Below are positions 2-24,066 of a DNA stretch of 33,401 nt, one piece after another (the stretch's first letter is position 1; each line of letters opens with the position of its first letter). This stretch comes from Planctomycetia bacterium. GTDB lineage: Bacteria; Planctomycetota; UBA8108; UBA1146. Under the pieces are notes generated by a model. That model was not told the origin of the DNA, searched no databases, and worked only from the letters and a program-made list of their open reading frames with translations. The stretch is taken from the NCBI GenBank assembly GCA_009937185.1, contig JAACCY010000027.1, positions 1 to 33,401 of the forward strand, read 5' to 3'. The position numbers and the translations under genes were made by a program.

Positions 2-2263
2 CCGGATGCCCTCGGCGCCAACAATCCGACACTTCAGTGCATGACCGCATACGGACCCAGTGCAACTCTCGCAGTTGAGATTTTCACTCCCGACGGACAA
101 ACTGACGGACACTCATACTTCATGGGTGCTTCTGACACTGCTGTCGAAAATGGAGTCAGTTACATTGTTTCATTGGCTTGCGGCCTGAACAGCCCCAGCC
201 CTCTCTCCGGAATTGGTTTTCCCAACAACCGTTACATCATGGACGTCGGCTACTCCGTCGCAGTTGCAGGAACCTGTGGCAGTGCTGGTGGGGTTTCCAA
301 CCTTCAGTGTAACCAAACTGTCGGAGAACAGACCTGGAACCTGACATGGGACGACGCCGGTGGTGCCACCTCATGGATCGTTGAAGTCGACGGCAATGTG
401 GAGGCCATCCTTCCGAGCACCGACTTGGCGTTCACGACTGGACCCCAGTTCGAGTACCAAGATGTTGACGTTTTGATCAGCTCCTGGACTGGACCTGGTG
501 GAACCGGAACATTGATCAACTCTGCGGGTTGTACTCTTCAAACCGCCCCAGCCAACAACTGGCCAGAGGGTGCAAGCATCACTGCTTCAGGTACTTTCCA
601 GCAGGAGATTGCCACACCGTACACAACGACTATTGGTCAGCCGCTCGATATCGCTGTTTGTGACCCGGGAACTGGTGTCGTCCAGATCAACAACGACATC
701 TTCTTGCGCTACACCGCTACCAACGACGGCGATGTTTTAGTCAGTACCTGTAACCCAAATACGGCCATCAACGGTGATGACACCATGCTTGCCGTCTACA
801 CATATGACGCCGCTCTTCTCGATGATCCGAATCTCGCGATCGCCTGTAATGACGATGTCAATGTAGGTGCAAACCCGACTAATAACCCCGCCTGTAACGT
901 TTTCCTCGCTGAGGCGATCTTTGCAGCGACAACAGGAACCGAGTACCTCATTCGTCTCGGTACCTTCAACGCAGCAGGTACAGGAGCACTCGAGTACACG
1001 ATTAATGATTGTGTCCCTGCGACCAACATCTCAGGAGCTTCAGAGTGCACCACGGGAGACGTGACCTTGAACTGGACACCGAACCCGAACGCTGCGTCTC
1101 AGGAAATCCTGCGTGACGGCGTTTCTCTCGCAGTAATAGGCGCAACAGAAACCAGTTACATCGATTTGGGTGTGGCTGATGGCAACTACCTTTACGAGGT
1201 AGTGACCGATTGTGGTGGCGGCCCCAACCCCATTGGCGTCGCAATCTCTGTGCTGACCTACGCGGGTCAGACTGACCTTATCTTCGCGGTTGAGGGACTT
1301 CTGAACGCTGGAGACCCCGGACTGGTAGACAGTGGAGCACTTCTTGAAACCGCTCTTGCGGGTGCCGGAAGAACCGTCGGCTTGATCCGAGGTAGCTGGC
1401 TTGATTACCCCTGTGCCAGTGACGCAGGAGTTTCCAACGTCTGGATTCTGGCAGGAACCGTACCTAACGATTACCGCATCTCTGTCGCTGAGGGTGACGA
1501 ACTCGCAATACTTGGAGAAGCCGGTAAGGGCGTTTACTTCGAAGGTGGAGATCACTTCGGATTCATTCACGCAGCCAGCCTGTTTGACTCTCGTGATGGC
1601 GTGGACGATGGTACATACGATACTGGTGACGGAGATGACACCTTCACCGCCATGGACGGAGCAGATTCCGGACAGGGTCTCGATATGAGTGCCAATGCTG
1701 ATGTGCCTTACACTCAGGATCAGGCTGACAACGACTGGACAGACCAGTTGACGGTGGCCAATGCTGATACAGGACTGTCTGGCGCTGGTTCACTCTGGCT
1801 CTCTGACGATGCCTTGGTCGATGCCGCGGGTGCTCCGATTCCTCCGTACATTACTGCTATTGCCGGTACTGCAAACGTGGGTGGAAACACCGTCGTTCAG
1901 TCCTGGGAAATCGGTGGATACGGTGGCGATCAAACGGCTCTCGCTCTTGCATACGCAGAGTTCATCGAGGGTGGTGGATCAACCGGACCAATCTTTAAGC
2001 GTGGAGATGCAAACCAAGATGGTGGATTCAATATTGCTGACGAGGTCTTCCTATTGGCAGCCCTCTTCTCGGGTGGAACTCCCTGTGAATGCGACGACAG
2101 TTGTGACCAAAATGACGACGGTGGAGTAAATATTGCCGACGCGATCTATGGTCTTGCTGCGCTCTTCTCGGGTGGCCCCGCTCCTTCAGACCCTGGACCG
2201 AGTGTCTGCGGCGAGGATCCCACGGCTGACTCACTCACTTGTGACACCTACAACGGCTGTTAA
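2..2263 (+). CDS. Large secreted multidomain protein with C-terminal dockerin-like doublet (5' end outside window)
   Basis: The reading frame is open from base 2 with no stop, so the start lies upstream and only about 753 residues are visible. A Met codon at 41 is internal. Counting from base 2, the parts in order are: beta-rich N-terminal sequence; a PPC-like beta-sandwich (~200-340) with the cysteine-rich pattern also seen in the other large proteins here; a short FN3-like segment (~345-415) containing a 'LRDGVSL' strand; an unrecognised ~235-residue module (~420-655) shared with the next gene; and two dockerin/EF-hand-like loops (~668-725; DNA ~2000-2176) of the form D-x-N-x-D-G-G-x-N-I-A-D followed by a hydrophobic helix and LFSGG. 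A tail with three cysteines ends in YNGC. Export is inferred from family and composition because the signal peptide is out of view. No catalytic motif was recognised. A strong terminator follows the stop. Confidence 0.85.
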   Translation, partial: PDALGANNPTLQCMTAYGPSATLAVEIFTPDGQTDGHSYFMGASDTAVENGVSYIVSLACGLNSPSPLSGIGFPNNRYIMDVGYSVAVAGTCGSAGGVSNLQCNQTVGEQTWNLTWDDAGGATSWIVEVDGNVEAILPSTDLAFTTGPQFEYQDVDVLISSWTGPGGTGTLINSAGCTLQTAPANNWPEGASITASGTFQQEIATPYTTTIGQPLDIAVCDPGTGVVQINNDIFLRYTATNDGDVLVSTCNPNTAINGDDTMLAVYTYDAALLDDPNLAIACNDDVNVGANPTNNPACNVFLAEAIFAATTGTEYLIRLGTFNAAGTGALEYTINDCVPATNISGASECTTGDVTLNWTPNPNAASQEILRDGVSLAVIGATETSYIDLGVADGNYLYEVVTDCGGGPNPIGVAISVLTYAGQTDLIFAVEGLLNAGDPGLVDSGALLETALAGAGRTVGLIRGSWLDYPCASDAGVSNVWILAGTVPNDYRISVAEGDELAILGEAGKGVYFEGGDHFGFIHAASLFDSRDGVDDGTYDTGDGDDTFTAMDGADSGQGLDMSANADVPYTQDQADNDWTDQLTVANADTGLSGAGSLWLSDDALVDAAGAPIPPYITAIAGTANVGGNTVVQSWEIGGYGGDQTALALAYAEFIEGGGSTGPIFKRGDANQDGGFNIADEVFLLAALFSGGTPCECDDSCDQNDDGGVNIADAIYGLAALFSGGPAPSDPGPSVCGEDPTADSLTCDTYNGC

Positions 2264-2301
2264 CAAGCAAGATAAGATAGGCTGTAAAGTCTTTCTTTAC
2301 T

Positions 2302-2339
2302 GGGGTGGTGAGAGCATTGCTCTCACCACCCCTTTTTTT
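2302..2339 (+). terminator. Intrinsic terminator after the first secreted protein gene
   Basis: A perfect 14-bp stem (GGGGTGGTGAGAGC against GCTCTCACCACCCC) with a 3-base loop at 2302-2332 is followed by seven T at 2333-2339. It starts 38 bases after the stop codon at 2263. This is a textbook Rho-independent terminator and shows the two tandem paralogues are separate transcription units. Confidence 0.95.
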
Positions 2340-2612
2340 GTGTCCAATAGAAGAGAAACAGTTCATAGGCTGTATTGCGGCCCAGCCCTTAGACCTTTAC
2401 CATTGATACTGGCTTTGTTCTTACACCAAACCCTATTCTTGTCCACTGAGGAGGTGTTCCTCGGTTCTCAATCAGGGTGTGGTGACCGGATCAATACCAC
2501 GGGTTTCGAAGTTCAATCACGTAATCCGGGTTGTTCATATTTTAGGATATTTCTCAGACACACTAAATAGTGTCAGGTGACTCTTGGAGTCGCTTTTTTC
2601 TTGGAGGTTAGA
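2340..2612 (+). other. Intergenic leader region before the second secreted protein gene
   Basis: The gap between the terminator and the next start codon has no convincing gene; the open frames across it lack a family signature or ribosome site. It presumably holds the promoter of the following gene, but no clear -35/-10 pair could be picked by eye. Its last 50 bases contain two adjacent small hairpins, around 2565-2576 and at 2577-2593. The second is followed by six T (2594-2599) and ends just before the Shine-Dalgarno sequence. Confidence 0.6.
2577..2599 (+). promoter_or_regulatory. Terminator-like hairpin in the leader, candidate attenuator
   Basis: GTGACTC (2577-2583) pairs with GAGTCGC (2587-2593, one G-T wobble) around a TTG loop and is followed by TTTTTT (2594-2599). 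The GGAGG ribosome site starts at 2603 and the ATG at 2613. A small hairpin (ACACTA/TAGTGT) lies directly upstream. The position fits a transcription attenuator or a 5'-UTR stabilising structure. No ligand-binding aptamer was recognised. Confidence 0.35.
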
Positions 2613-5600
2613 ATGCTGATGAGATGGATACTCACAGGACTGATTCTGGTGCTCATTAACTTTTCCGGAACTGCCGATGCTCAGGTAACGATCAATGAGA
2701 TTCGTACTGATCAATCTGGCTCGGATACCGATGAGTATTTCGAATTAGCAGGTCCCCCTGCAACCAGCCTTGCTGCATTGACGTACATCGTCATTGGCGA
2801 TGGTTCCACCGCCAGCGGAACTATTGAAGCCGTGGTCAGTCTTGCCGCAGGGAACATCTCCTTTTCGGGTCTGTACGTAGTTGCAGAAGATACCTTTACT
2901 CTGGGCGTCGCAGATATGACTGCAAACCTCGGATTCGAAAATAGTGACAACGTGACTCATCTTTTGGTAGAAGGCTTCTCTGGCGCACTTGCCGATGACC
3001 TCGACACCGACGATGACGGAGTTCTGGATGCCACTCCATGGACTAACATTGTCGACTGCATCTCCCTCCTCGAATTTCCGATCGACCCTCTGACAGGACA
3101 GCCCACTGAAGGAGAGCTCGTATATTGTTCAAATACTGTGGGTCCAGATGGAACCTTTGTTCCCGGACACTCAGGACGTTGCCCCGATGGAACGGGTGAT
3201 TGGGAGATTCTCGACTTTGGTGATCTGGCCTCAGATACCCCCGGAAACCCCAACACCTGTCCGGAAATTTGTGATAACTCCGTAGATGACGATGGAGACG
3301 GATTCATCGACTGCCTAGACGACGAATGCTCAGGAGATCCTGCATGTGCCCCCGCACCGCTCAATGACGACTGTGCCAGTGCCACCAATATCGGAGAAGG
3401 TTCCTTCCTTGTATCCACATTTGGTTCCACGACAGATGGCCCTACCAATTGTGGCGGCAGTACTCTGAATGATGTTTGGTATCTCTATACGGCAACGTGC
3501 AGTGGACTCGTGACCTTGACCACTTGCGGAACGTCAACTTTTAATCCGCAAATGGCGATCTATTCGGGCTCCTCAACTTGTCCTCCAGATTTCGCAAACG
3601 TATTGGCTTGTGATTCCGGAAGCTGTGCAGGATCCGGAGACCCAGAGATTCTCTTCGATGCAATTTCTGGTGAAACATACTTAGTTCAAATCGGTGGATT
3701 CAATGGTGAAAGAGGTGAACTCACCTTAACCGTCAGTTGCCCACCCGACGATTGCCACCAAGCACCCAATCCAAATTTGGAATTTCAGGGATACATTGGA
3801 GTCTCTGGTTCGAGTGCACCCGCAGCTCCGATTGCATATGTCGGAGACCCAGCAACAAACTTCACCTTTGATTCAATAAACATCGCTGGTGCAGGAACTA
3901 TTGAAGATCTTGATGTTGGTGTAAATATCACTCACGGGTTCATTGGAAATCTTGATATCGATTTCGTATCGCCCGCCAATACTCAGATCAGACTTTACCA
4001 AAATGAAAACAACTCTGACGATAACATGTCCTTGATCTTCGATGACGAGGGAGCAACATACGGGAGCGATACCACTTTCAGTGGCATCCGTATGCAACCT
4101 TATGCCTTGTCTCAAGGATCCGGATCATTGGCTGACTTCGACGGCGAGCCCGCTGCTGGTAACTGGACGATTCTTGTAGCAGACGGATTTGCAAGTACTG
4201 CAGGAGGCACCCTCGATGACTGGTCCCTCTTCATTTCCCAGCCAGAAACCATCACCGGTACCCAAGACTTCGTGATCAACATCGATCCCAACTCCCTTGA
4301 AGGAGTCGACGATCTGGATGTGGACATGAATCTTTCCCACCCGGACCTGACTCAGGTCGAAATCGATCTCCTGTCTCCCGGAGGAACCAGTATCCGACTT
4401 CATGACAATGGAGCAGGTACAGATCTAATCGGACGCTTTGACGACGCTACGGGTCTCAACGACGGTTACGGTTCATTGATCCCATCTGGCCCGGGAACAC
4501 TGGCAGACTTCGATGGCGAAATCATCGGCGGCGACTGGACCCTGACAATTGCAGCGGGAACCTCGACCGGTACATTCTCTAACTGGGCGCTACAGGTATG
4601 CCCTGCAAACTGCCCTGCTCCCAGTGACCTTGTCATTGAGAGTGACTGCGCAGGAGATGCCGTGAACTTGTCGTGGATCAACAACACGGCCTACTCAAAT
4701 ATTTCGATTGAACGCGATGGAGCCATCGTCGCCACTCTTGCCGGCGCAGACACAACGTACTCTGACGTCTCACCTCCTGAAGGATTCCACGAATACGTAG
4801 TGAGAGGTTCTTGCACATCAGGTGCAGGAATCGCTTCAGGATTCGTCGATCACTTCTCGTATAATGGTGAAGATACATTGGTCTTTGCTCTCGAAGGGCT
4901 CTTGGACGACGGCGATACTGGATCGAATGATTCAGGTGCTGCTATTCAACAAAGCCTGATCGCCTCTGGCGTCAATTCGAAGCTGATCAGGAAACAGATT
5001 GACGAATTTGCATGCCTCGACCCCGCTCAGATTTCTCAGGTATGGGTTCTTTGTGGAACTTTCCCCACGAACTTCCGTCTCAATAGCGCTGAAGCGGACC
5101 TATTGGCATCGCTTGCAGAAGCAGGAGCTTCGGTCTACTTCGAGAGTTCTGATCATTGGAGCTTCAACCACCCGATTTCGACGTTCGATGATCGAGATGG
5201 TGTTGCAGAACCTTACGAGCAAGACGACAACGACTCTCTCGTCGGCTTAGATGGTGCAGATAGTGGTGTCGGACTGGATATGTCTGCAAACCAGAACGTG
5301 CCTTACTCGCAAGATAATCAATCCACGACCGGAAACCCCAATGACTTCACGAACATCCTCATTCCAGCCACAGCAGAACTCGCAGGAGGAACCGCAGGTT
5401 TGGCATGGAGATTCGACGACGCCATCGGTGTCACTTTTGGAGTCACGACCGCCTACATTCCGGGAACCGGTGGAAGAGTGATCTGCTCCTCATTCGAATT
5501 GGGGGGATACGGTGGAAACCTCGATAGCGTCGTTTCCGCTTACCATGACTTCCTTGGAGATAGTGTCGTCACTCCTGGAACTGGATTCCAGAGAGGTGAC

Positions 5601-5855
5601 TGCAACTCTGATGGTGGATTCAACATTGCGGACGCCATCTTCCTTCTCGGAAATCTGTTCTCTGGTGGCCCAGAAGGCACCTGTACTGACGCTTGCGATG
5701 CGAACGACGACGGCAGTGTCAACATTGCAGATGCCATCGCTGCCCTAGGAAGCCTGTTCAGTGGAGCGGGACCACTTCCTGACCCGTTTGGCGATTGTGG
5801 AGAAGACCCCACTTCAGACAGCATCGAATGCGCTGAGTACAACAGCTGCCCCTGA
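2613..5855 (+). CDS. Large secreted protein: LTD-like, PPC-like, two P-type domains, shared unknown module, dockerin-like doublet
   Basis: 1080 residues. The start at 2613 was chosen because GGAGG (2603-2607) lies 5 bases upstream and the frame then opens with a signal peptide (MLMRWILTGLILVLINFSG, cleavage near TADAQ). In order: a lamin-tail-like region (~24-215, beginning 'VTINEI' and containing 'DEYFELAGP'); a Cys/Asp-rich calcium-type repeat (~218-245, DDDGDGFIDC); a PPC-like sandwich (~249-380); two proprotein-convertase P-type beta domains (~418-540 and ~546-662, both with 'LADFDGE' and 'GxWTL/I'); an FN3-like segment; the ~235-residue module shared with the upstream gene (~750-985); the dockerin-like doublet (~994-1052; DNA ~5592-5768); and a three-Cys tail ending YNSCP. 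No protease or glycosidase active site is evident, so it looks structural or adhesive. It probably arose by duplication of, or from a common ancestor with, the gene upstream. Confidence 0.9.
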   Translation: MLMRWILTGLILVLINFSGTADAQVTINEIRTDQSGSDTDEYFELAGPPATSLAALTYIVIGDGSTASGTIEAVVSLAAGNISFSGLYVVAEDTFTLGVADMTANLGFENSDNVTHLLVEGFSGALADDLDTDDDGVLDATPWTNIVDCISLLEFPIDPLTGQPTEGELVYCSNTVGPDGTFVPGHSGRCPDGTGDWEILDFGDLASDTPGNPNTCPEICDNSVDDDGDGFIDCLDDECSGDPACAPAPLNDDCASATNIGEGSFLVSTFGSTTDGPTNCGGSTLNDVWYLYTATCSGLVTLTTCGTSTFNPQMAIYSGSSTCPPDFANVLACDSGSCAGSGDPEILFDAISGETYLVQIGGFNGERGELTLTVSCPPDDCHQAPNPNLEFQGYIGVSGSSAPAAPIAYVGDPATNFTFDSINIAGAGTIEDLDVGVNITHGFIGNLDIDFVSPANTQIRLYQNENNSDDNMSLIFDDEGATYGSDTTFSGIRMQPYALSQGSGSLADFDGEPAAGNWTILVADGFASTAGGTLDDWSLFISQPETITGTQDFVINIDPNSLEGVDDLDVDMNLSHPDLTQVEIDLLSPGGTSIRLHDNGAGTDLIGRFDDATGLNDGYGSLIPSGPGTLADFDGEIIGGDWTLTIAAGTSTGTFSNWALQVCPANCPAPSDLVIESDCAGDAVNLSWINNTAYSNISIERDGAIVATLAGADTTYSDVSPPEGFHEYVVRGSCTSGAGIASGFVDHFSYNGEDTLVFALEGLLDDGDTGSNDSGAAIQQSLIASGVNSKLIRKQIDEFACLDPAQISQVWVLCGTFPTNFRLNSAEADLLASLAEAGASVYFESSDHWSFNHPISTFDDRDGVAEPYEQDDNDSLVGLDGADSGVGLDMSANQNVPYSQDNQSTTGNPNDFTNILIPATAELAGGTAGLAWRFDDAIGVTFGVTTAYIPGTGGRVICSSFELGGYGGNLDSVVSAYHDFLGDSVVTPGTGFQRGDCNSDGGFNIADAIFLLGNLFSGGPEGTCTDACDANDDGSVNIADAIAALGSLFSGAGPLPDPFGDCGEDPTSDSIECAEYNSCP

Positions 5856-5915: not shown

Positions 5916-6078
5916 GTTCCATCCACTACTACCAGACACGCCTGTAATGGCCCCTCACTCGCTCAATCGATGCCCTATCAAGCCCAAAATTCCCCTCGTC
6001 CTGTGAAAGGAGGAACTCCACCCCTCATAGAGTTTTTTCGTTATCATGCGATTTCCGTGTCACGTAAGTGGAGGATCG

Positions 6079-7685
6079 ATGCAGCCGGAACCCCATAAAT
6101 CGAATGAGCCACCCCAAGGTGCCACCGATGAGGTTCGACGTGCTGGTCCCATCGGAAAAGTACTGCTTCTATCAAGGCTCTTGGGACTGTTTCGAGATAT
6201 GGCACTCACTGCGATGCTCGGTTCAACAGCGACTGCGGAAGCGCTGAGAGCTGCTTTGAGAATTCCTGTCATGCTCAGAGACATGATTTCAGAGGGAACC
6301 CTGTCAGCTTCCTTTTCTCCCGCTTATAGAGAACAGCAACAATCTCAAAATCCGGAAGCGGCTTTGTTGTTTTCCCGTGCAGCCCTGAGTAGCTTGCTCC
6401 TCTTGCTTGGTATCACCCTCACTCTCCTTGCGTGGAATGCCGAAGCAGTGATGACCTTGATTTTCCCGGGACTGGTACTGCACGAAGAAGCCGTAGATAA
6501 TTTCAGAAGGCTGCTGCCCTATTTGGCACTTGTACCGTTGATGGCGTTCTCAAGGGCACTCTTCATTGCCACAGGAAGGACGCTTCCGCTCTCTTCCCTC
6601 AAGCCCTTCAGAATGCCGCCCTAATCCTCGCCGGACTATTTTTGATATGGACACAAGCAGGGGAACCCGAACGCGCTCAGGGGTGGACTATGGCATTCCT
6701 AGCTGGGGCTGGCGTCAGTTTGCTTTGGCTTATCATTCAGCTCCTAAAAGTATCCCGGTTCCCATGGCCCACCTTCAACTGGAAGGTTCCGGGGCAACGT
6801 CGCTTTCTCCTCGATTTCGGGACTCTACTCGTGAGTCAAATCTTGCTCCAAGCATATTCTCTGCTCGCATTCCACCTGGCCTCCGAACTGCCTACGGGAA
6901 GCATTACTTGGCTCGAGACTGCCTTCAGATTCCATTTCTTCCCGGTCGCTCTCGTCGGTGTCAGTCTCGGCATCGTAGCAGGAGACGAATCAGCAGATCT
7001 AGCCAGCCGTGGAGAGCACCAACGTCTTGCCCAAATGTTGACACGGAATCAACGCCTGGCGGCTTTTCTAGGTTTCCTTGCAGGCGCCGGACTTCTCGCT
7101 ACATCCAACTCCATCATCGACACCCTATTTGTTCGGGGTGAGTTCAGTCCCGAAGACGGCCTTAACACTGCAAACATTCTTTGGTGGTACTGCTTCGCTG
7201 TACCTTTTGCTTGCATGAATATTGGCCTTCAAAGAACGGCCATAGCCATTGGGCTAAGGAAAAAGGTCATGCTGATTTCATTGGTCGGTCTTGGACTACA
7301 GCTAGGAATACTCTTTAGTCAGATTCTTCCCATGGATACAGGAACGATCGCTCTCGCTTATGTGGCTTCAACAATACTCAGTTGGATCTTCCTGAAGTGG
7401 ACCCTGCACAAGAATTTGGAATTGCCCCGACCTCGAATAGTTGCCGGTTTGAAACTATTGATTCTCGGTATTATGGTCCAGCAAGCCGCTTCTTATTCCA
7501 TCCATTATCTCGACGAGTACTTACCGCAGTTCCTAGGGAGAGACCTTTCCATACTGGGATTCTCTATCGTGACAGGAATTTTTCTCGCTTTGGTTGTGGG
7601 GCAACGACTTCGAATGAAAGAAGCCCATGACATGTGGATTGTCATCAAATCCTGGACGGTAAAACGATCCGATCAAGCCCGCTGA
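6079..7685 (+). pseudogene. murJ: MurJ/MviN-family lipid II flippase, disrupted by a -1 frameshift
   Basis: Two consecutive frames together encode one ~535-residue multi-spanning membrane protein, close to the usual MurJ length. The first (6079-6624) begins at ATG 6079 with GGAGG 4 bases upstream and contains the N-terminal 'LLSRLLGLFRD' and the 'EGTLSASFSPAYRE' region typical of MurJ. The second is open to 7685 and continues the family, with many transmembrane segments, 'FRFHFFPVALVGVSLG' and 'NIGLQRTAIAIG'. Homology switches frame between about 6575 and 6590: frame 1 reads 'FIATGR', while the other frame then reads 'ALFPQALQNAALILAGLF', the expected continuation. That corresponds to one missing base. 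No slippery heptamer is visible, so this is either a recent mutation or an assembly error. MurJ is normally essential for peptidoglycan export, which makes an error or a second genomic copy likely. Confidence 0.8.
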
Positions 7686-11678: not shown

Positions 11679-11770
11679 GAAGGGTTCCTTCCAAAAAAGA
11701 AAAACCGAACTTGATTTCAGGAGTTATATTAAAGCCCGTGAACTCATGAAGTACAGAAGGAGTCGACTCA

Positions 11771-12781
11771 ATGAACATACCCTCCCTACTCGTACTGTTC
11801 TTATTCCTAGGAGCCCCTTCTTTCGACACCAAACCGCTTGAGACCTCAGACGACAGCAAGGTGACTTCAAATCAATTCCCCAATGGAATCGCCTGGTATG
11901 GCACTTGGGAAGCGGCCAAGTCTGAAGCGGAACGCACCGGGAAACCCATACTTCTCCTATCTGCTGCCCCCCAGTGCCATGGAGTCCCCGGAATTTGGTG
12001 ACCAGGAAAACAAGAAATGGATCAGAGTCTCTGGTCCGATATTGAAGTCGTAAAATTGTCACGCAAATTTGTATGTGCAAGACTTGCCACTTACGAAGAC
12101 GCAAAAGAGGGGAAATTTCTTGAAAGCATCTTTCGTGGAAGATCCGGCCAGTTAGAAAATACTGTCTTCGTTCTTATGGCTCCGGACGGAAAAACAAAAT
12201 TGAGTTCATCTGGAAGATCGCCCCGAATGGTTTTCGGAGGTTCTGAAGGTTGGGAATCTACGGTTCTCGCACTCGAAATGCTCGAGGTCTCTGAAAAGTA
12301 TCCGTGGAAAGAAAAATCGAACGGCCGCCCCAATCTACCCATAAACAAAGACCTGAGGCGTGCCATTAATGTCGCCTCCTGTGATCGACAACTCTTGGTT
12401 ATTGCTCATCAACTTCCTAAAGAAACTATAGAAATACTCTCGAAGATTGCTTGGGGAGATCAACATATTGGACAGTTCGCTTGGGAAATTACGAGCGATG
12501 AAAATGAGTTCCCTGGAGCGGGAATGGAAAATCCCAAGCCCGGTATTTTCATTGGGAACCCCGACGAATTTGGGTTGAAGTTGAATTGGTTAAAAACGCT
12601 CTCTCCTAATGCAAAGGAGGAAGCAATTCTCACTGCTCTCGCCGAAGTCTTAAAAACGAAACGAGCGTCAGAAAAATCAACGAGGCTGCACGTATCCCGG
12701 GGAAAAAGACTCTCGAAAAGTTGGGAATCCGAGATCCCCAATACCGATCCACAGATCCCACCCCCGAATAGAAGAAATTAA
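11771..12781 (+). CDS. Candidate selenoprotein: secreted thioredoxin-like protein with in-frame TGA (C-x7-U)
   Basis: Start ATG at 11771 has GGAG 8 bases upstream and encodes a signal peptide (MNIPSLLVLFLFLGAPS). Residues ~38-69 match thioredoxin-like/DUF255-type N-termini: 'GIAWYGTWEAAKSEAERTGK', then 'PILLLSAAPQCH'. At codon 77 (11999-12001) the frame meets TGA, after Cys69-HGVPGIW. The identical frame continues without another stop to 12781, giving 336 residues if TGA is read. The sequence after it ('MDQSLWSDIEVVKLSRKFVCARLATYED') aligns with the post-active-site helix and strand of the same fold, so both sides belong to one domain. A 7-bp hairpin begins 17 bases after the TGA. Reading TGA as selenocysteine would place Sec eight residues after Cys69, as in redox enzymes. 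Alternatives: nonsense mutation, sequencing error, or TGA replacing a non-redox residue. Other genes here use TGA as a true stop, so a general code change is ruled out. Confidence 0.65.
12019..12037 (+). promoter_or_regulatory. SECIS-like hairpin downstream of the in-frame TGA
   Basis: GGATCAG (12019-12025) pairs over all 7 positions with CTGGTCC (12031-12037), one pair being T-G wobble, around the 5-base loop AGTCT. Bacterial SECIS elements recognised by SelB have a short stem, a small apical loop with a G in its first two positions, and a loop about 16-37 bases after UGA. Here the loop starts 24 bases after the TGA (11999-12001) and G is its second base. The fit is good, but short hairpins also occur by chance. 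Confidence 0.5.
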
Positions 12782-12819: not shown

Positions 12820-13347
12820 TTAATATGCGAAGTCATCGTCAAAAGGCGCCCTGTTTTCCAGAGCAGACTGCGTCCTCCACCGACGAATCTGTTCGACATG
12901 AGCAAGGTCATGAGAACACCATGCCAACAGTAGATCTCCAGCCCGAATGGGACCGCCGGAGATATCCTTTCCTTGATGCCAATCGGGATCCTCAATTGAA
13001 ACCAACCAAGCCAGCGATCTCTGTCTCTCATCTTGGAATATCCTGAGCAGTTCTCCGAGAGTTCTCTCGGAATACTTTCGCTCCCCTACCCATTTCTCAG
13101 GGTCCATCGAAGGCCACTCTTCAGCAGGGTCACGAAGTAACAGATCTAATCTAATCCGAAATATTTCTCGATCGGCGTCGATAAGATGTCCCAAGATTTC
13201 CCGCAATGACCAACTCGATTCAGAGGAACTCCAAGCAGACTGCCGCTCTGTCACCTCTTCACTCAGAGATAATATCGCACCGAGAGAAGCGGATAGACGT
13301 TTTATCGTTTCATTTCTGAAATCCACTTCTTCAAAGGAATCCGTCAT
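12820..13347 (-). CDS. DinB-like four-helix-bundle protein
   Basis: 175 residues, cytoplasmic. The DinB/YfiT superfamily pattern is visible: 'SSWSLREILGHLIDADRE' near residues 44-61 with His54, and 'WCSHDLAHVEQIRRW' with His146 and His150. These three histidines form the usual metal triad. Many members are thiol-dependent transferases or of unknown role, so no substrate can be stated. The start ATG overlaps the stop of the LOG-family gene (ATGA, 13344-13347), implying co-translation. It converges with the candidate selenoprotein gene across a 38-base spacer. Confidence 0.88.
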   Translation of the reverse strand: MTDSFEEVDFRNETIKRLSASLGAILSLSEEVTERQSAWSSSESSWSLREILGHLIDADREIFRIRLDLLLRDPAEEWPSMDPEKWVGERKYSERTLGELLRIFQDERQRSLAWLVSIEDPDWHQGKDISGGPIRAGDLLLAWCSHDLAHVEQIRRWRTQSALENRAPFDDDFAY

Positions 13348-13904
13348 GGTCGCTTCTCCATTGAATCAGTTTTCCGTTTCAGCAACTCAAGCCCCTTCAC
13401 GGCTGAATCAGCCGTGAGGACCAAATCACGATGCCCTTCAGATAACATTTTTTCAGACATCATATGATCAAACATCTTCAATAAGGGATCCCAATATCCT
13501 TCGATATTCGCGAGGACTAATGGTTTTTCAATCAGTGATAACTGATTCAAAACCAAAAACTCGATCACTTCTTCCAAAGTTCCAAAGCCACCAGGAAGAG
13601 CGATTGCACAGTCACTCTTCTCCCACATCAATTTCCTTCGTTGCTGCATGTCTTCAGTCAATATAATCTCGTCTGATTCCAAAAATGTGAGTTCCTGATC
13701 GTGAAAAAACTTCGGGATGACTGAAGTGATCTTCACTCCGGATCGATGCGCTGCACTTGCAAGCTTCCCCATGGAACCGATGTTACCGCCGCCATATATC
13801 AGTTCATGACCACCCACAGCAAGCCGAGTACCTAAATCTTCTGCGTCCTGGAAATATTCGGGACGAATCATCTCACTGGCAGAGCAATAGACTGCGACTT
13901 TCAT
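13344..13904 (-). CDS. LOG-family protein (TIGR00730-type nucleotide phosphoribohydrolase)
   Basis: 186 residues, the usual length. It has a Rossmann-like fold with 'YGGGNIGSMG' (~37-46) and the signature PGGFGTLEE (104-112), preceded by 'QQRRKLMWEKSD', the counterpart of the family's R-K-x-M region. Family members release ribose 5-phosphate from nucleotide monophosphates; some activate cytokinin ribotides, but the bacterial role is often general nucleotide metabolism. Start ATG at 13904 has GGGAG 4 bases upstream. It is the first gene of a pair with the DinB-like gene. Confidence 0.92.
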   Translation of the reverse strand: MKVAVYCSASEMIRPEYFQDAEDLGTRLAVGGHELIYGGGNIGSMGKLASAAHRSGVKITSVIPKFFHDQELTFLESDEIILTEDMQQRRKLMWEKSDCAIALPGGFGTLEEVIEFLVLNQLSLIEKPLVLANIEGYWDPLLKMFDHMMSEKMLSEGHRDLVLTADSAVKGLELLKRKTDSMEKRP

Positions 13905-16644: not shown

Positions 16645-19600
16645 TTAGGGGCAAGAGTTATACTCTGCACACTCCAGATTAGTACCACTGGGATCAGAAC
16701 CACAGACTCCATTGGAAGGAACTGGGATATCGGGCCCATTGGTAAACAGATAGCTCAACAAGTAAACGGCATCCGCAATGTTACTCAGCTCATCGTCATT
16801 GGTATCGGTTGCGTCATCACAGGACACGACCCCACCTAAGAAAAGTGCGTTGAGTAGCGAGACGGCATCTGCCAAGTTTATCAAAGCATCGTCATTGATG
16901 TCCGCACGAATAAACCCACCTACAGTCGGATTCAATGTGATTGTTCCATTCACTCCTGATACTCCAGCAGACTGTGAACTCACAACTACAACGAGTTCAA
17001 CAGGCGGAACACCAAGAGTATCGGAGAATTCGACCTGAGTACTCAATGGTGCGGTATTACCTGCTAAACCAGCAGGAACTGTATCGTATTCGACAGACAA
17101 CAGGTCTGTTGCAGTAGCAAACGAAATCACGTCCGCACCTACGAATGTATAAACACAGCCCACTGTGAGGCCATCCGCAAAACTATTCACATCAAAGAAG
17201 TCAGGTCCCGTGTTTCCATTCAAGGCCGTCAGTACCGGAGCGGCGATCGCACCTGTCGCGGACAAGATTGCAGGATCATGGACAATACCTAATGAAAATG
17301 CTTGAGTCTCATTGGGATAACCTAGGTTCCCTGGATCTTCCTCAACCGAAACGGAAACTTCAAAGGAGCTGCTACCCGTCGCTTCTGGGTAATCCACTGC
17401 TTGGTCAGCAGCCGTCATGATAAAGCCTGAAGGATCAAGACTGATGGTTCCTGAGTTTCCACCGGCAATAACAGCCGTACCTGACGAAGTCGACACAATC
17501 AACTCTACTGGAGGAGAGCCCAAAGATTCGGAAAAGCTAAGCGTAGAGGAAACGGTGCCCGTGGCACTCGCCAGTGATCCTGGAAGTGAGGTGTAACTCA
17601 CAGAAATGATTTCTGTATCCGACACCATTTGCAATGTTTCGACGAGAGTGAAGTCGTACACCGATCCGACCGTGAGTCCGTCGGAGTAGATGGTGGTATC
17701 AAAGAAAGCAGGACCCGCTCCACCGTCCATGGCAGCAAGATCTCCGAGAGCCTGTGCAGAAACTGCTTCAAACAATGCCCCATCATGAGCTAATCCGAAG
17801 GAGAACCCGGCTGTGTCTGTTGGGAATCCCGGATTGTTCACTTCTTCCTGGAGAGAGACAACACTTTCAAAGCTTGCTCCACCGGCACTGTAGGAACCGT
17901 TGACATTCCCGGCCGTGAACATGAATCCAATCTGCTGAATCACGTCAATACTGCAAGTACTCGTGGGTGCCGCTTGGGATCCTGCACAAAATGGCTGAAG
18001 GGTGTAAACACGACTGCCGACTTGAGCGGAGGAATCCGTGTAACTCGTCGCTGTTCCCGGCAGGGTATCTACCAGTCCGCCATCCCGAAGCACTCCAATA
18101 GAGTCATAGTCTTCTCCATTGTTCCATGAAAGAAGAATTGAGTTCCCACTGACCTGACTACAAGAAAAAGCATTCGCCGATACACAGATACAATCCGGAT
18201 CAGAAATACAATCGGGATCTTCGCAATCGGTCAGCCCATCCAAATCATCATCTGTTCCGTTGTTGCAGTTCTCAGGAGGAGGCGGAGGAGCCTGGGTGCT
18301 GATTTCGAGAGTACCGGATCCAATCGCCGTATTATTCCACCCGCCCAAGCGGATCAATACTGTGGATCCAGCACTGAGATTGGTGGTCACGGAACTGGTC
18401 AAGCCACCGCATCCTGCACCATCACCATTACAGGCGATGGGAGTGAGAGCTCCACAAGTTCCAGAATAAACCAAGATATCGGAATCAAAGGTGACCGTAT
18501 CACACGTTGAGATGACGTACTCTCCGGAGGAAGGCACAGTGAACTCGAACCAAACATCGTTGATAAAATCACCGAGGAATGTTCCTCCACAGGTCGAGTC
18601 ATCTATCGCGTCCGCTCCGGTCGTCGCGGCTGTGTTATCCACTGCATTCGATCCCAGAATAGCGACTTGAGCAGTAGAACATTCGTCACCCGGAATAGCA
18701 GGGACACATGCTGGGTCGCTAGAACAATCGAGGTCCTCGCAATCAGCAAGACCGTCTCCATCGTCATCGACACCATTGCTGCAATTCTCCACAGGTCCAC
18801 CGGATGTCAAATCAAGGATCAGTGCGCCTGGCCCCGGTAATCCATTTCCGGGATGAGGTGTTCCCCATGCCCCGATACGGAACCAATATGTTTCGCCGGC
18901 AGTCACATCCAGAGTCAACTCTGACCAATATTGCTGACATGTTGGAGAAGTGTTTTGATTCACGTCTCCATTACAACCCAGATTAATCGAAGAACCACAG
19001 GACCCTGTGTAGGCCACAAGATCCGTGTCAAAACTTCCGGGCGAACAAGTCGAGACAAACAGGGAACCCGATTGATCAGGAACATAGGAGTACCAGATAT
19101 CACCCAGCATATCTCCGAGTCCTTGACCACAGGTCGCGGCATCCGGAATAGGATCTGTTCCTGTTGTTGCAGCAGTGCTATCAAAAGGATTGGTCCCCAA
19201 GATCGCCACTTCAGCCGAGACACATTCATCTCCAGTCGCGGGTGGAACACAAGCGGGGTTGGTGCTGCAATCAATGTCTTCACAGTCCGCTAACCCGTCC
19301 CCGTCATCGTCCACACCATTGGTGCAATTTTCGACACCGCCACCGCCACTAGGAACAAACAACACTTCCATGTCACCAGAACCGGTGACTCCCTCACTCC
19401 ATGAAGAGACTCGAATCAGATAAGTGGTTCCACCCGTGACAGGAATATTCTCAATACGTGAGGTGAAAGTAGAACAGCCTCCTGTGTCACCGTTACAAGC
19501 AAGTAGATTGAGTGCTCCACAATTACCAGTGAACACTTGAAGGTCAGTGTCCCAGCTCGCAATACCACAAGTACTCACCGACATCGTTCCCGCTTCGGGA

Positions 19601-21471
19601 GCAGAATATGAGTACCAAATGTCATTACCGCAGGCACCAATGGCGGTACCCGGACAAGCAGAGTCATCGGGTCCAGGTCCTCCTGTGGTCGCATTTCCAC
19701 TCGTGATGGAATTCAGACCAATGAATACAGGAGTCGCTCCGGCACAATCATCATTCGCCGGAGGTGGTCCCGGAGGAACCTGACCACAGACCAACTCTGA
19801 CATTCCCACAGCAGTCATCACCGCTGCAATTTGGTCAGCGTCTGATTGCGTGAAAACCGAGCCGGCAACACCCGTCCGAGGGTCGATAGGACTCGAGTTG
19901 AGCAAGTCAGCAGCCGCTTGATTAATATGGGTTTCAGCCTGAGGGAAATCAGTGGCCTGAGTCATGTAGACGCTGAGGGCTCGGAAGTAAACCGCTGTTG
20001 CCTTCGTCAGCCCAATCGGCGTGATCGTTTGGCCATTATAGGTTTTACCATCGACGAGAATGGCAAATGAATGATTCAAGACTCCACTCCCGATGTGCAC
20101 CCCACCATTATCAAATGGACCACAAGCATTTTGGTTATAGAGAGGATCAGTAGTACTCGGAGGATCGTTGAAACACTCCGGGAACATCATATCCCGAATA
20201 GCACCTAGGCTCGTTTCTTCACCCATCCTCCAACGAGCGGAACCATCACCGCATCCTGTTCTTGCATTGTTTGGAGTATCCAGACCAGATCCACTCGAAC
20301 CCGCGATAGGCCAAGGTGTACCGCCGGGAGCGCCAATTTCTGAAACGTCACCGTTCCAAAGATCGATCGCTTCTCCAAAGATATCTGACATCGCCTCATT
20401 CAGCTGACCAGATTGATTTTGGTAAATCAGGTCTGCCGTGAATTGTGTCAATCCATGAGCGAGTTCGTGAGCGATCACATCGTCGGTACCCAGCCCATTA
20501 CAAAACGCACCTTGAGTCCCATTCCATATAGCATTGGGACAAATATTATCGCTCCAGTTGGCAGTGATGATCATGGATCCACCGAATCCGTCTAGGCTAT
20601 CTCTGCCCAGAGAATCAGAGAGCACACGATAAAGATCACCACATGTATCGTAGGAGTTATCGATATCAAGGATTCCGGATGCAGGGGACCCTTCTGTTCT
20701 GGCAAGTGCTCCAGGGAGCCCTCCACCTCCGGATCCGTCATAGATCTCACGGATCAGGGCACTATGTACTGCAGGCCAGTGGTCGAGGACCACTCCGGTG
20801 CTGGCATCAACAAGAATGTTTTCAGCCAACATGTCATTACCTTCGGCAACGAGATGATGCGCCAGTACAGGAGCAGCGATGGGGTCGTCCCCCCACCAGC
20901 CCGGATTCGCGATGACCAGCTGAGCAGGAGCCGTCTCTACTAAAAATTCCTGCCCAAGTTCCTGTGCTGCTAGTTCAACAGCTTGCTCGGCAAGAATCTT
21001 TGGAGCGATCTCTAACTTCTTGGGCACATTGTAAAAATCACCATTGATGGTCAGTGGAGTTCCGTCGTTCGCCAAATGAACTTTGACGACCCCTGTAAGG
21101 ACATGCACCCCATTATATACCTGATGGAATGTGTGGTGGATTTGACCTAGAGAGCACTTCTCAGTTCTTATTTTCTTCAACTGAACTTCAGGGAAATTGA
21201 TCCCAAACTGTTTTCCATGAAAACGAAGAGCCTGGAGTGGATCTGAAAGATCGGGCTCAACACCTTTCGGTAAAGGCAGTCCTTTACCTTGGGCACCACT
21301 CACTAAATGGATTTTGCCTGTCGCTGGGGAACGAAACGATTCTATTCCAGCTTCATTACCTATAAATTGCTGTGCCCCAAGGAAGTGACTCCCGTTGGGT
21401 AAACAAAGGGCGACGAACCCTACAAATATGAGACTAAATACGAAGCGATAAGTATTCAATTTGGCCCTCAC
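16645..21471 (-). CDS. Giant secreted M4 (thermolysin-like) metalloprotease with PPC-like, cohesin-like and dockerin-like modules
   Basis: About 1608 residues. The start is uncertain: GTG 21471 gives the best signal peptide (MRAKLNTYRFVFSLIFVGFV), TTG 21459 has GAGG 6 bases upstream, and TTG 21495 is the longest. In order: FTP/PepSY-type propeptide (~35-225); M4 catalytic domain (~230-560) with HELAH (335-339), third zinc ligand in NEAMSD (Glu359) and GGVHIGSG (His459), a complete active site; three PPC-like domains (~565-707, ~745-890, ~925-1060), each followed by a Cys/Asp-rich repeat containing 'DGLxDCxDxDC'; an FN3-like segment; two ~160-residue cohesin-like repeats (~1180-1515; DNA ~16927-17934); a dockerin-like doublet (~1522-1580; DNA ~16735-16908); and a Cys tail ending YNSCP. 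The first EF-loop has Asp-Ala in place of Asp-Gly-Gly. The protein probably digests proteins outside the cell while attached through its C-terminal modules. Confidence 0.93.
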   Translation of the reverse strand: MRAKLNTYRFVFSLIFVGFVALCLPNGSHFLGAQQFIGNEAGIESFRSPATGKIHLVSGAQGKGLPLPKGVEPDLSDPLQALRFHGKQFGINFPEVQLKKIRTEKCSLGQIHHTFHQVYNGVHVLTGVVKVHLANDGTPLTINGDFYNVPKKLEIAPKILAEQAVELAAQELGQEFLVETAPAQLVIANPGWWGDDPIAAPVLAHHLVAEGNDMLAENILVDASTGVVLDHWPAVHSALIREIYDGSGGGGLPGALARTEGSPASGILDIDNSYDTCGDLYRVLSDSLGRDSLDGFGGSMIITANWSDNICPNAIWNGTQGAFCNGLGTDDVIAHELAHGLTQFTADLIYQNQSGQLNEAMSDIFGEAIDLWNGDVSEIGAPGGTPWPIAGSSGSGLDTPNNARTGCGDGSARWRMGEETSLGAIRDMMFPECFNDPPSTTDPLYNQNACGPFDNGGVHIGSGVLNHSFAILVDGKTYNGQTITPIGLTKATAVYFRALSVYMTQATDFPQAETHINQAAADLLNSSPIDPRTGVAGSVFTQSDADQIAAVMTAVGMSELVCGQVPPGPPPANDDCAGATPVFIGLNSITSGNATTGGPGPDDSACPGTAIGACGNDIWYSYSAPEAGTMSVSTCGIASWDTDLQVFTGNCGALNLLACNGDTGGCSTFTSRIENIPVTGGTTYLIRVSSWSEGVTGSGDMEVLFVPSGGGGVENCTNGVDDDGDGLADCEDIDCSTNPACVPPATGDECVSAEVAILGTNPFDSTAATTGTDPIPDAATCGQGLGDMLGDIWYSYVPDQSGSLFVSTCSPGSFDTDLVAYTGSCGSSINLGCNGDVNQNTSPTCQQYWSELTLDVTAGETYWFRIGAWGTPHPGNGLPGPGALILDLTSGGPVENCSNGVDDDGDGLADCEDLDCSSDPACVPAIPGDECSTAQVAILGSNAVDNTAATTGADAIDDSTCGGTFLGDFINDVWFEFTVPSSGEYVISTCDTVTFDSDILVYSGTCGALTPIACNGDGAGCGGLTSSVTTNLSAGSTVLIRLGGWNNTAIGSGTLEISTQAPPPPPENCNNGTDDDLDGLTDCEDPDCISDPDCICVSANAFSCSQVSGNSILLSWNNGEDYDSIGVLRDGGLVDTLPGTATSYTDSSAQVGSRVYTLQPFCAGSQAAPTSTCSIDVIQQIGFMFTAGNVNGSYSAGGASFESVVSLQEEVNNPGFPTDTAGFSFGLAHDGALFEAVSAQALGDLAAMDGGAGPAFFDTTIYSDGLTVGSVYDFTLVETLQMVSDTEIISVSYTSLPGSLASATGTVSSTLSFSESLGSPPVELIVSTSSGTAVIAGGNSGTISLDPSGFIMTAADQAVDYPEATGSSSFEVSVSVEEDPGNLGYPNETQAFSLGIVHDPAILSATGAIAAPVLTALNGNTGPDFFDVNSFADGLTVGCVYTFVGADVISFATATDLLSVEYDTVPAGLAGNTAPLSTQVEFSDTLGVPPVELVVVVSSQSAGVSGVNGTITLNPTVGGFIRADINDDALINLADAVSLLNALFLGGVVSCDDATDTNDDELSNIADAVYLLSYLFTNGPDIPVPSNGVCGSDPSGTNLECAEYNSCP
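16927..17934 (-). repeat. Two cohesin-like protein repeats in the M4 protease
   Basis: Each copy is about 160 residues and shares the order: 'GFSFGLAHD'-type strand, 'ALNG-TGPDFFD', 'F-DGLTVGCVY-F', 'SVEYDTVPA-LAG', 'LG-PPVELVV' and a final 'GTI-L' strand. The same module occurs in the two proteins encoded just upstream. Resemblance to cohesins is in length, beta-strand rhythm and the 'HD-xLL' position, not in a diagnostic motif. Confidence 0.6.
18187..19332 (-). repeat. Three Cys/Asp-rich repeats separating PPC-like domains
   Basis: Copies at about 19246-19332, 18706-18792 and 18187-18273 encode ~29 residues of the form 'ENC-NGVDDDGDGLADCED-DC---PAC'. The alternating acidic residues and four cysteines suggest calcium-stabilised, disulfide-bonded linkers. 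A fourth copy lies in the protein at 2613-5855 (about residues 218-245), so the unit is shared across both clusters. Confidence 0.75.
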
Positions 21472-21808
21472 TAGAATTAATGTTTTCTCACTCAAAATTT
21501 GATCGGTTCACTCATTAATAACTCCGCCAAGTTGCTCGGGTTTCTTTTTGCAGAATCCAGAATCCAGAGTCCGAGGAGCAATAAATGAACAGATTTCAGC
21601 CCAACTTCACAAAATCCATTCCTAGATTTTGGGCCTGAGCCAATATCTAGGTAAACTCTATGCTAGGCCTTCTGGAGTGGCCGGGCAAATACTGCATTTC
21701 AGGGTCGCGACATGATCAGATTTCTAGATCAAATACCTGTCAATCATCCCGTGCCTGACTGCAAATTCCTTGGCTATTGGCCGCATGAAGGCCTTCTAGG
21801 GCTTTTTT
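21472..21808. other. Intergenic region between two minus-strand genes
   Basis: About 340 bases without a supported gene. It should contain the end of the 21809-23689 transcript and the promoter of the metalloprotease. A short tandem near 21551-21571 (AGAATCC twice, then AGAGTCC) and two copies of AGGCCTTCT (near 21665 and 21788) are visible. GAAGGCCTTC (21787-21796) followed closely by eight T (21803-21810) reads as a weak plus-strand hairpin, but there is no plus-strand gene to terminate. Confidence 0.5.
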
Positions 21809-23689
21809 TTACAAACAAGAGTTAAATGAGTCGCAGCTGAGTGATCCCGGAGTTGAATCTGGACCACAAGTACCATTACCCGGAGGAGCTGGCCCTCCTG
21901 TAAAGAGGGCTGCAAGAGCGCTGACCGCATCCGCAATATCGACTCCCTCGTCGTCATTGTTGTCGCAGGCATTCAGACAACTGACAGAACCCGACAGGAA
22001 GAGGAATGAAAGCAAACTGACTCCATCTGCAATATCAAAGGAGCCATCATCATTGCAATCACCCCGATCGAACCCGCCACCGGGGCTGAGAATGATTTGG
22101 CACCCTGCGACAAACAGGTTTTGCGACTGGCTATTCACAACAATCACTTGCTCAACAGGTGGAGATCCCAAGTTGCTATTGGCCTGTAAACTTGTGGAGA
22201 CGGGCTCCGTCTGACCAACAAAAGCACTAGGAACTGTTTGATAACTCGCCTCAACAATCGCCTGTGCTGCGTCGAAAGAGAGGGTATTGATCGCTGGATT
22301 CGTGAATGAAAAAACACATCCAAAAGTGACGCCATCCGTGAAGATATTCGTATCAAAGAAATCAGGTCCGGACCCACTGTTCAAAGCAGATAAGGCTGGG
22401 CCAGGCCCCCCTCCAGTAGCTTCCAACAGTGAAGAATCATGTCCTAAGCCGACAGAGAAACCTTGCGTGTCACTAGGGAACCCTGGGTTCGAGGATTCTT
22501 CAATAAGTTCCATGAGAACTGAAAAGCTACCTGAACCACTCGCAGGCGAAAAAGATCCCTCTTGGAGAGGTGCACTCAATGAAAAAGCAGGAGTGGGCTC
22601 GATAGAGATTTGTACAGGAAGAACATTAGCGGCAATCGCAGTTCCACCATCGATCACGACAACACTGTCTATGGCAGGCGTGCCCAGTATCGTCGAGATT
22701 TCCAAATTTGTAACGAGTGCTTCGGAAAGATTATCTAAGGACCCTGCAATCGCACTGTATGAAAAAGTCGCCACGTGTAGAGAGTTATCAAAGGTGATGG
22801 TTTCTTGGACTTGGAAATCGTAGAGGCAGCCCACAGCCGCTCCTGATGTAAACAGACTCTCCTGAAAGAAAGCCGGACCTGCTCCATTGTCCAGCCCAGC
22901 GAGATCAGAGCCTTGTATCACCGAATCAGCACTGAACAAACTCGCGTCATGCCCATAAGCAAAACTGAATCCATTGGTAGGTGTAATATCAGCAGGAACA
23001 TCAGGAATCTGAATGAGTGAGAATTCGACCTGAAGGCCATTCGCTATCACCTCGGAAGCCAAGAGAGTCTGGTCTCCAGATGAGATTTGAAAATCTAGAG
23101 GTGGCTCGGGTTGTAAAGTAACTACGCAGTCAGTCCCTATAAGAGTTTCAGTAGTTCCTCCACAATTCGAGACCAAATTGTCGACAGGAGGAGCCCCCAG
23201 ATTGTCAGACATACTGACCACCGTAAGCAAATCGTCAGAGAGGTTTGCTATAGCACTAGGCTGAACAGAATACCCCGCAGAAATCAAAACTTTGGGAACA
23301 TCAAATTGGAGAGTTTGGTCAAACGAGAACGAGAAGACAGAGCCGACGGTGAAGCCTGTTGGAAAAGTTTCTCCGTCAAAGAAGTCTGGACCCGCTCCGC
23401 CATCGAGGGCGGCAAGTGCACCTGCAGTCGTAGCCCCAGAGGGCCCCAACTGAAGAACGGTAGGATCGTGACTAAATTGAAATGAGAATCCACAAGTATC
23501 GATCAGTGCTCCCGATGTCTGCTGAAGACTGAACTCGAGATCAAAGTCTGCGCTCCCTGATCCCACCGGCACCAATTGGTTTGGAGAAGAAACCTCAAAG
23601 ACTTGAGCGTCCACTTCGGAAAAAAGCGCGCCAAAGAGTGTGAGTGCGAAAAACACAATTCCAGATATAAACGACTTCGTATTTATCAC
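21809..23689 (-). CDS. Secreted protein with three cohesin-like repeats and a C-terminal dockerin-like doublet
   Basis: 626 residues. GTG 23689 was chosen because GGAGG lies 8 bases upstream (plus-strand CCTCC 23698-23702) and a signal peptide follows at once (MINTKSFISGIVFFALTLFG, cleavage near VDAQ). An upstream in-frame start at 23743 would bury the signal peptide. Three repeats of ~160 residues span ~29-193, ~198-366 and ~368-535, each with 'GFSF-HD--L', 'AL-GAGPDFFD', 'F-GFTVGSV-F', and 'LG-PPVD--V'. A dockerin-like doublet (~539-599; DNA ~21893-22075) with loops D-C-N-D-D-G-S-F-D-I-A-D and D-N-N-D-D-E-G-V-D-I-A-D precedes a three-Cys tail ending FNSCL. No catalytic residues were seen, so a scaffold or surface-structural role is inferred. 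It has the same domain plan as the next gene upstream and may be its paralogue. Confidence 0.9.
   Translation of the reverse strand: MINTKSFISGIVFFALTLFGALFSEVDAQVFEVSSPNQLVPVGSGSADFDLEFSLQQTSGALIDTCGFSFQFSHDPTVLQLGPSGATTAGALAALDGGAGPDFFDGETFPTGFTVGSVFSFSFDQTLQFDVPKVLISAGYSVQPSAIANLSDDLLTVVSMSDNLGAPPVDNLVSNCGGTTETLIGTDCVVTLQPEPPLDFQISSGDQTLLASEVIANGLQVEFSLIQIPDVPADITPTNGFSFAYGHDASLFSADSVIQGSDLAGLDNGAGPAFFQESLFTSGAAVGCLYDFQVQETITFDNSLHVATFSYSAIAGSLDNLSEALVTNLEISTILGTPAIDSVVVIDGGTAIAANVLPVQISIEPTPAFSLSAPLQEGSFSPASGSGSFSVLMELIEESSNPGFPSDTQGFSVGLGHDSSLLEATGGGPGPALSALNSGSGPDFFDTNIFTDGVTFGCVFSFTNPAINTLSFDAAQAIVEASYQTVPSAFVGQTEPVSTSLQANSNLGSPPVEQVIVVNSQSQNLFVAGCQIILSPGGGFDRGDCNDDGSFDIADGVSLLSFLFLSGSVSCLNACDNNDDEGVDIADAVSALAALFTGGPAPPGNGTCGPDSTPGSLSCDSFNSCL
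22085..23605 (-). repeat. Three tandem cohesin-like protein repeats
   Basis: Approximate copies are 23111-23605, 22592-23098 and 22085-22588. They align with each other over their whole length, with the anchors 'GFS--HD', 'GPDFFD/GPAFF' and 'LG-PPV/LGTPA'. Divergence between copies is high, so these are old duplications rather than recent ones. Confidence 0.65.
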
Positions 23690-24066
23690 TTCTGTATCCT
23701 CCTCATTCGTACCAAATGAAAACCTCTCCCAACGAGCACGCAATGAATCCGGCGAGCTGGAACAGAGTTAGACCTATTTTATCCATCTTGAGAGCAAATC
23801 GGTCAACCACTCGATCCAGCGAAGAAGATCGAAAAACATGTCCAGAAATCATCTAGGGGACAAGTCTTGGTATTTTATCCAGCAATACAAAGAAGACAGA
23901 AAGGACCGATTCTCAACTCTCTCAATCTCAATGATATCGCACCTATTCACCGCCTCCTGCACGAGTGGCGGAGATGAATATTTAATTTGAAAGCACCCCC
24001 GGCAGTTCAAAGTCCGATTTCAAATCACGGACATTATTAATGAACTGCCGGGGGTGCCGGAAATTA
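23690..24066. other. Intergenic region holding a long palindrome
   Basis: The ~377 bases between two minus-strand genes contain no supported ORF. The notable content is the 65-base composite palindrome at 23993-24057, just after the stop at 24067. The rest (23703-23992) presumably carries the promoter of the 23689 gene; no clear hexamers were picked. Confidence 0.6.
23993..24057 (-). terminator. Long nested stem-loop, probable terminator of the 24067-25449 gene
   Basis: GCACCCCCGGCAGTTCA (23993-24009) and its perfect 17-base complement (24041-24057) enclose a second inverted repeat (GTCCG 24012-24016, CGGAC 24028-24032). On the minus strand it begins 9 bases after the stop codon and is followed by TTTCAAATTAAATATT, a weak T tract. 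A terminator or 3'-end stabiliser is most likely. The 17-bp arm and nested structure are longer than the other terminators here. Confidence 0.65.

Follow-up and report, generated by a model that had tools for sequence, protein, structure and literature searches.

Prokaryotic selenoproteins are catalogued as 119 families in a 2026 review, and most searches for selenoproteins depend on pairs of Cys and selenocysteine (Sec) proteins (PMC13188914). Among the described systems, the thioredoxin-fold selenoproteins of the UxxC type (Sec-thioredoxin, DsbG-like proteins, and others; PMC13188914, table 1) carry Sec where the first active-site Cys would be. The protein analyzed here does so as well, but it differs from the UxxC proteins in having Lys80 for the second Cys, Asn130 for the cis-Pro, and an 8-residue insertion that bears an extra Cys. 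The Trx7/PDZ (seleno)protein of NF041199 is likewise a bacterial selenoprotein with a Thioredoxin_7-type domain, but its motif is CxxU and it has a PDZ domain, whereas none was detected in our protein. The VPGUxxT family (NF041382/NF041383) shares the thioredoxin-like fold and has TGA-containing members in the same phylum, but its VPGUxxT motif contrasts with the VPGIWUPGK, preceded by a Cys, of the present case. Here, we describe a gene in a stretch of planctomycete DNA of 33,401 nucleotides, which we call the window. Comparative evidence strongly supports reading this gene as one that encodes a selenoprotein.

The reading frame and its in-frame TGA

Translated with TGA as Sec, positions 11771 to 12781 of the window (+) encode 336 residues, with a lone in-frame TGA at codon 77 (Sec77; 11999-12001, +) and a closing TAA at 12779-12781, and homologues align to the window protein over its full length. 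One frame with a single internal TGA is what a sequence-only reading of this DNA had described, and the translation bears that out. The same reading had pointed to a ribosome site and a signal peptide, and the sequence has a likely candidate for each. A Shine-Dalgarno-like GAAGGAG (11755-11761, +), read in the sequence, lies 9 nt upstream of the ATG, and the N-terminus is hydrophobic (MNIPSLLVLFLFLGAPS), with a signal-peptide-like segment, MNIPSLLVLFLFLGAPSF (11771-11824, +), read by eye from the translation. Signal-like segments open the homologues as well, and we infer from the signal-like N-terminus that the window protein is exported. Genome annotation would split the gene in two. TGA is indeed a genuine stop elsewhere, as had been claimed: of the window's 18 main genes, 8 end in it.

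Gene neighbors offer no conserved operon or partner across lineages, and neighbor conservation is confined to close lineages. Within the window's own family, the neighbor is a divergent metallophosphoesterase, and in Verrucomicrobiota a sulfatase is often found downstream of the selenoprotein gene, a frequency that takes no account of the background abundance of sulfatases. Downstream in the window (12820-13904), DinB-like and LOG/TIGR00730-like genes, named by eye, lie on the opposite strand and form no operon with the selenoprotein gene. We note that five large secreted proteins of the window (41-5855 and 16645-25464) have a common C-terminal module, RGDxNxDGxxxIADxxxLLxxLFxGG ... CDxNDDxxxxIADxxxxLxxLFxGG ... 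CGxDPTxxxLxC, which is probably a dockerin-like or sorting domain.

Conservation of the TGA is without exception. Among the homologues, 80 distinct sequences cover the site, and each has TGA at the Sec77 codon and TGG immediately 5' of it. Identities range from ~30 to 98%, and the sequences come from Planctomycetota, Verrucomicrobiota, Kiritimatiellia, and MAGs titled Eremiobacterota. The in-frame TGA stands in each of the 80 at a conserved and functionally important position, that of the thioredoxin nucleophile. None of the 80 has a Cys, Arg, or Trp codon at the site; Arg or Trp was an outcome that the sequence-only reading had held would tell against it. A genome search found homologues in 22 of 59 related genomes, and the site-spanning copies in those 22 have exactly one in-frame TGA each, all in one aligned column; the exception is the copy in genome G007, which a contig end cuts.

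Broader searches gave the same result. A scan of 84,980 species (one genome per species, two peptide patterns) returned 77 loci in records titled Planctomycetota, Verrucomicrobiota, Kiritimatiellia, and Eremiobacterota. The pattern FVC[AIV]RL[AS]TY excludes the Sec site, and the second pattern, by our own interpretation of its back-translation, would if anything favor Cys codons. Moreover, a profile search of 830 genomes from three phyla found 60 site-spanning genes, 60/60 with TGA: 52 in Planctomycetota (392 genomes, such that the family is present in ~13% of those sampled), 3 in the phylum of the Verrucomicrobiota locus (289 genomes), and 5 in the SZAS-1 phylum (149 genomes). A Cys form of the family was found neither in the 830 genomes nor among the 77 loci. 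Cys homologues are a usual, if not essential, support for a bacterial selenoprotein, and these searches yielded none. Of the two states that the sequence-only reading had proposed to look for in relatives, TGA or Cys, only TGA was observed.

The downstream hairpin and the Sec machinery

In the first four codons past the TGA, +1 to +4 (Pro, Gly, Lys, Gln/Thr), the encoded residues are conserved but the third positions are not, and the region after the TGA is therefore translated. Codons +7 to +12 are instead frozen at the nucleotide level. Ser is AGT in 75/75 cases and Arg is AGG in 50/53, both of them minority codons in these same genes, and the codon excess relative to each gene's own usage reaches a z of 26 to 63 at +7 to +12, compared with at most ~12 elsewhere. 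These codons form a hairpin, GGACAGGA-GUU-UCCUGUCC in its family form and GGAUCAGA-GUC-UCUGGUCC in the window, where it lies within a 9-bp stem (12018-12038, +; stem 12018-12026/12030-12038, loop GUC 12027-12029) with a folding energy of -12.8 kcal/mol. The loop begins 25 nt after the UGA with G first, in agreement with the published bSECIS model, which has G first in the apical loop (PMC13188914).

No part of the window matched a known RNA family in Rfam at the gathering threshold, and the hairpin was assessed by our own alignment and controls. Pairing was found in 93.8% of cells in 75 distinct sequences, versus 88.4% in shuffles and 26 to 60% in slid registers. Double-sided changes numbered 29 cells versus 7.0 in shuffles, and 0 of 500 shuffles reached 29. 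Moreover, the bSECIS criteria, taken from the published model (PMC13188914), were satisfied by 75 of the 80 sequences versus 16% of synonymous recodings. By these sequence features, the hairpin at 12018-12038 is a bacterial SECIS element. A conserved, covarying SECIS after the TGA was absent from the sequence-only reading and strengthens its selenoprotein proposal.

The window's genome, a MAG that is 87% complete, encodes the Sec machinery for which that reading had called: tRNA-Sec (over cut-off, 65 bits, anticodon TCA), selB (366 bits), selD (347 bits; contig C70, 15343-16266), and selA (518 bits; contig C70, 13854-15215; L047). The selA, selD, and tRNA-Sec genes cluster on one contig, and selD is itself a selenoprotein gene with Sec at the catalytic site CAGUAAK. 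One caveat is that selA in this assembly has two nonsense codons, 164 (TAA) and 382 (TGA), both absent from the sister genome G005, and were they real the strain could not make Sec. Relative to G005, selA has 36 synonymous and 5 other nonsynonymous codon changes, and by this comparison the remainder of the gene is under purifying selection. Likewise, a murJ/mviN-like gene in the window (6046-7685) is split by a frameshift, while the copy in G005 is intact at 546 aa. Given this purifying selection and the frameshift in murJ, we consider assembly error a likelier source of the selA stops than loss or very recent decay. Among the 392 Planctomycetota genomes, selA was over cut-off in 49 of 52 carriers of the family versus 189 of 340 noncarriers (Fisher p 9e-9); the 3 carriers with no selA match over cut-off are fragmented MAGs. 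The gene was also present in 5/5 non-planctomycete carriers tested. The family may help explain why carrier genomes retain the Sec machinery.

Other readings of the TGA can be weighed against this evidence. Translation might stop at the TGA and re-initiate at ATG 12017, such that the locus would be two separate genes, the downstream one encoding 254 aa. An open reading frame does run from that ATG, and an ATG is found at the same place (codon +6) in 71 of the 80 homologues. What rules re-initiation out is that the codons between the TGA and ATG 12017 keep their amino acids with synonymous variation and that the other 9 homologues have no ATG at codon +6. Moreover, ATG 12017 sits at the foot of the conserved stem-loop, the spacing is invariant across homologues, the product would lack both the signal peptide and the opening strand and helix of the fold, and the downstream-only genes encountered were contig-truncated or fragmentary. 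We regard re-initiation as very improbable.

A pseudogene or a base-calling error might also produce a false TGA, in an assembly that has premature stops in selA and murJ, and base error was a weakness that the sequence-only reading had itself foreseen. We exclude base error because TGA was found in all 80 distinct homologues and in all 60 site-spanning genes from the 830 genomes. The identical codon appears in independent genomes and assemblies from at least three phyla, and it is followed by strong conservation and a covarying SECIS; the likelihood of an artifact or decayed gene is negligible. Finally, the TGA could be read as Trp or another residue by way of a suppressor tRNA or a change of code, which would account for a frame that is open given read-through. 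TGA, however, ends 8 of 18 main window genes and many of the homologues, no homologue has TGG or another sense codon at the site, the adjacent Trp is always TGG, and both the SECIS and the Sec machinery are present, making such a reading vanishingly unlikely. We conclude that the candidate selenoprotein is supported: every outcome by which the sequence-only reading had said it could fail was sought, and none came out against it.

Active site and probable function

The Sec codon falls in a thioredoxin-like domain (approximately residues 41-178; 11891-12304, +), delimited with Pfam Thioredoxin_7 and hhalign. The window protein scores 26.4 bits against Thioredoxin_7 (PF13899), for which the gathering cut-off is 27, and 20 of 23 members match at an E of 0.01 or less; hhalign to Trx7 proteins gave a probability of 98.6 and an E of 6e-16, and BLASTP to a small UxxC protein gave an E of 5e-8. 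In profile-profile comparison and BLASTP, Sec77 aligns with the nucleophilic first Cys of the thioredoxin WCxxC, Lys80 sits at the second Cys, and the invariant Asn130 occupies the cis-Pro position. The protein has Sec-Pro-Gly-Lys in place of the CxxC-type motif of Thioredoxin_7. Ahead of Trp76, an insertion of 8 residues holds Cys69 (TGC, 11975-11977, +), a candidate resolving Cys. Cys69 is found in 77 of 79 homologues, and in the remaining two the loop has its Cys 1 or 3 residues closer to the N-terminus, such that a loop Cys is found in 79/79. Residues that are invariant or nearly so include C69 (77/79), W76, U77, P78, G79, K80, C102, R104, E109, E113, N130, and R149.

The sequence-only reading had described a C-x7-U arrangement, CHGVPGIWU. 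The motif is there as described (C69-x7-U77), but it is Sec, and not C69, that is at the canonical nucleophile position. A better description, judging from the alignments, would be that Sec replaces the first Cys of WCxxC and Lys the second, with an extra Cys in an inserted loop. Overall, the comparative analysis establishes recoding of the UGA by a SECIS, Sec at the nucleophile position, and loss of the CxxC partner.

After residue 195, an AlphaFold2 model (pLDDT 84, pTM 0.81) has a second thioredoxin-like, PDI b-like unit (approximately residues 195-295; 12353-12655, +), with secondary structure in the order H-E-H-E-E-E-H. The best Foldseek matches were the tandem-thioredoxin proteins PDI, QSOX1, ERp44, and calsequestrin (E ~1e-5), while a sequence search of the PDB gave an E of ~0.2 to 1 at best. 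In overall fold, the model is similar to tandem thioredoxin domains of the PDI/QSOX type.

How the protein might work can be outlined. We propose that SelB and tRNA-Sec read UGA77 as selenocysteine, guided by the coding-sequence hairpin 25 nt downstream. The product, presumably exported in view of its signal-like N-terminus, would have a catalytic thioredoxin-like domain followed by the predicted second fold and would most likely be an extracytoplasmic Sec-based redox enzyme. The Sec77 selenolate would attack a peroxide, an oxidized thiol, or a disulfide substrate. This would leave a selenenic acid or a selenenyl-sulfide, to be resolved by Cys69 or an external thiol rather than by a CxxC partner. 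We infer a redox function for the window protein, and a role in it for Cys69.

Alternatively, the selenoprotein might have a peroxidase-like site composed of Sec77, Asn130 at the cis-Pro position, Trp76, and Lys80, and might act as a one-Sec, GPx-like enzyme in which C69 is structural. N130, W76, and K80 vary little or not at all, there is no CxxC partner, and the active-site residues may parallel the Sec/Gln/Trp/Asn set of GPx. Against a peroxidase-like site, a C69-type loop Cys is found in 79/79 loop-covering sequences (77 at the exact position), and the Foldseek matches resemble PDI and thioredoxin, the best 50 including no GPx. We consider the peroxidase-like site possible but unlikely.

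Returning to the enzyme with a resolving thiol, we think it highly probable that the gene encodes a secreted selenoprotein for which no catalogue entry was found, made by SECIS-directed recoding of UGA77, and that the product is probably an extracytoplasmic Sec-based redox enzyme. Perhaps Sec is obligatory, and the Cys form was lost in at least three phyla because Cys cannot do the reaction; we suggest this tentatively, with slightly more doubt than belief. The chemistry would then perhaps be peroxidase-like or one-electron, with Asn130 at the cis-Pro position. Obligatory Sec, if true, would also account for the family's escape from Cys/Sec-pair searches: an always-Sec family is nearly invisible to standard discovery, which works by matching Sec proteins to homologues with Cys. 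The family is a test case for chemistry that requires selenium over sulfur.

Comparison with known systems

No NCBIfam selenoprotein model matched the window protein over its cut-off, and NF041199, the one model to register at all, gave 12.3 bits (E 0.06) relative to a cut-off of 300. The VPGUxxT models NF041382 and NF041383 (cut-offs of 350 and 275 bits) gave no match at an E of 1 or less, while a VPGUxxT selenoprotein of a relative (L133), used as a positive control, scored 368 bits. The window motif was matched to none of the 119 families of the 2026 review (PMC13188914).

Other in-frame-TGA genes of the thioredoxin-like kind were encountered. Four (L128, L132, L137, and L140) are ~400 aa, occur in several Planctomycetota, have the motif NGHPxGCTUNNG, and match no NCBIfam model; they constitute a second uncatalogued family of secreted thioredoxin-like TGA genes. 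They resemble the window gene in encoding secreted thioredoxin-like proteins with a TGA in the same region and in the same phylum, but their motif is CxU, alignment is limited to the first 70 residues, and the family is separate. Three more (L127, L131, and L139) have the motifs GGTUPAC after cytochrome-like CxxCH segments, SVUGVRC, and EGCUAAG, and none is over an NCBIfam cut-off.

In structure, the best Foldseek matches included PDI, the QSOX1 oxidoreductase fragment, AGR2, and TXNDC12, which share tandem thioredoxin domains with the model, and a weak profile match to TXNDC12 (E 0.97) places Sec on its WCGAC. These, however, are eukaryotic Cys enzymes, with identities of ~10 to 20% and low full-length TM-scores. 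Judged against NCBIfam and the 119 reviewed families, and allowing that it may be mentioned elsewhere, the window protein apparently represents a new, Sec-only family.
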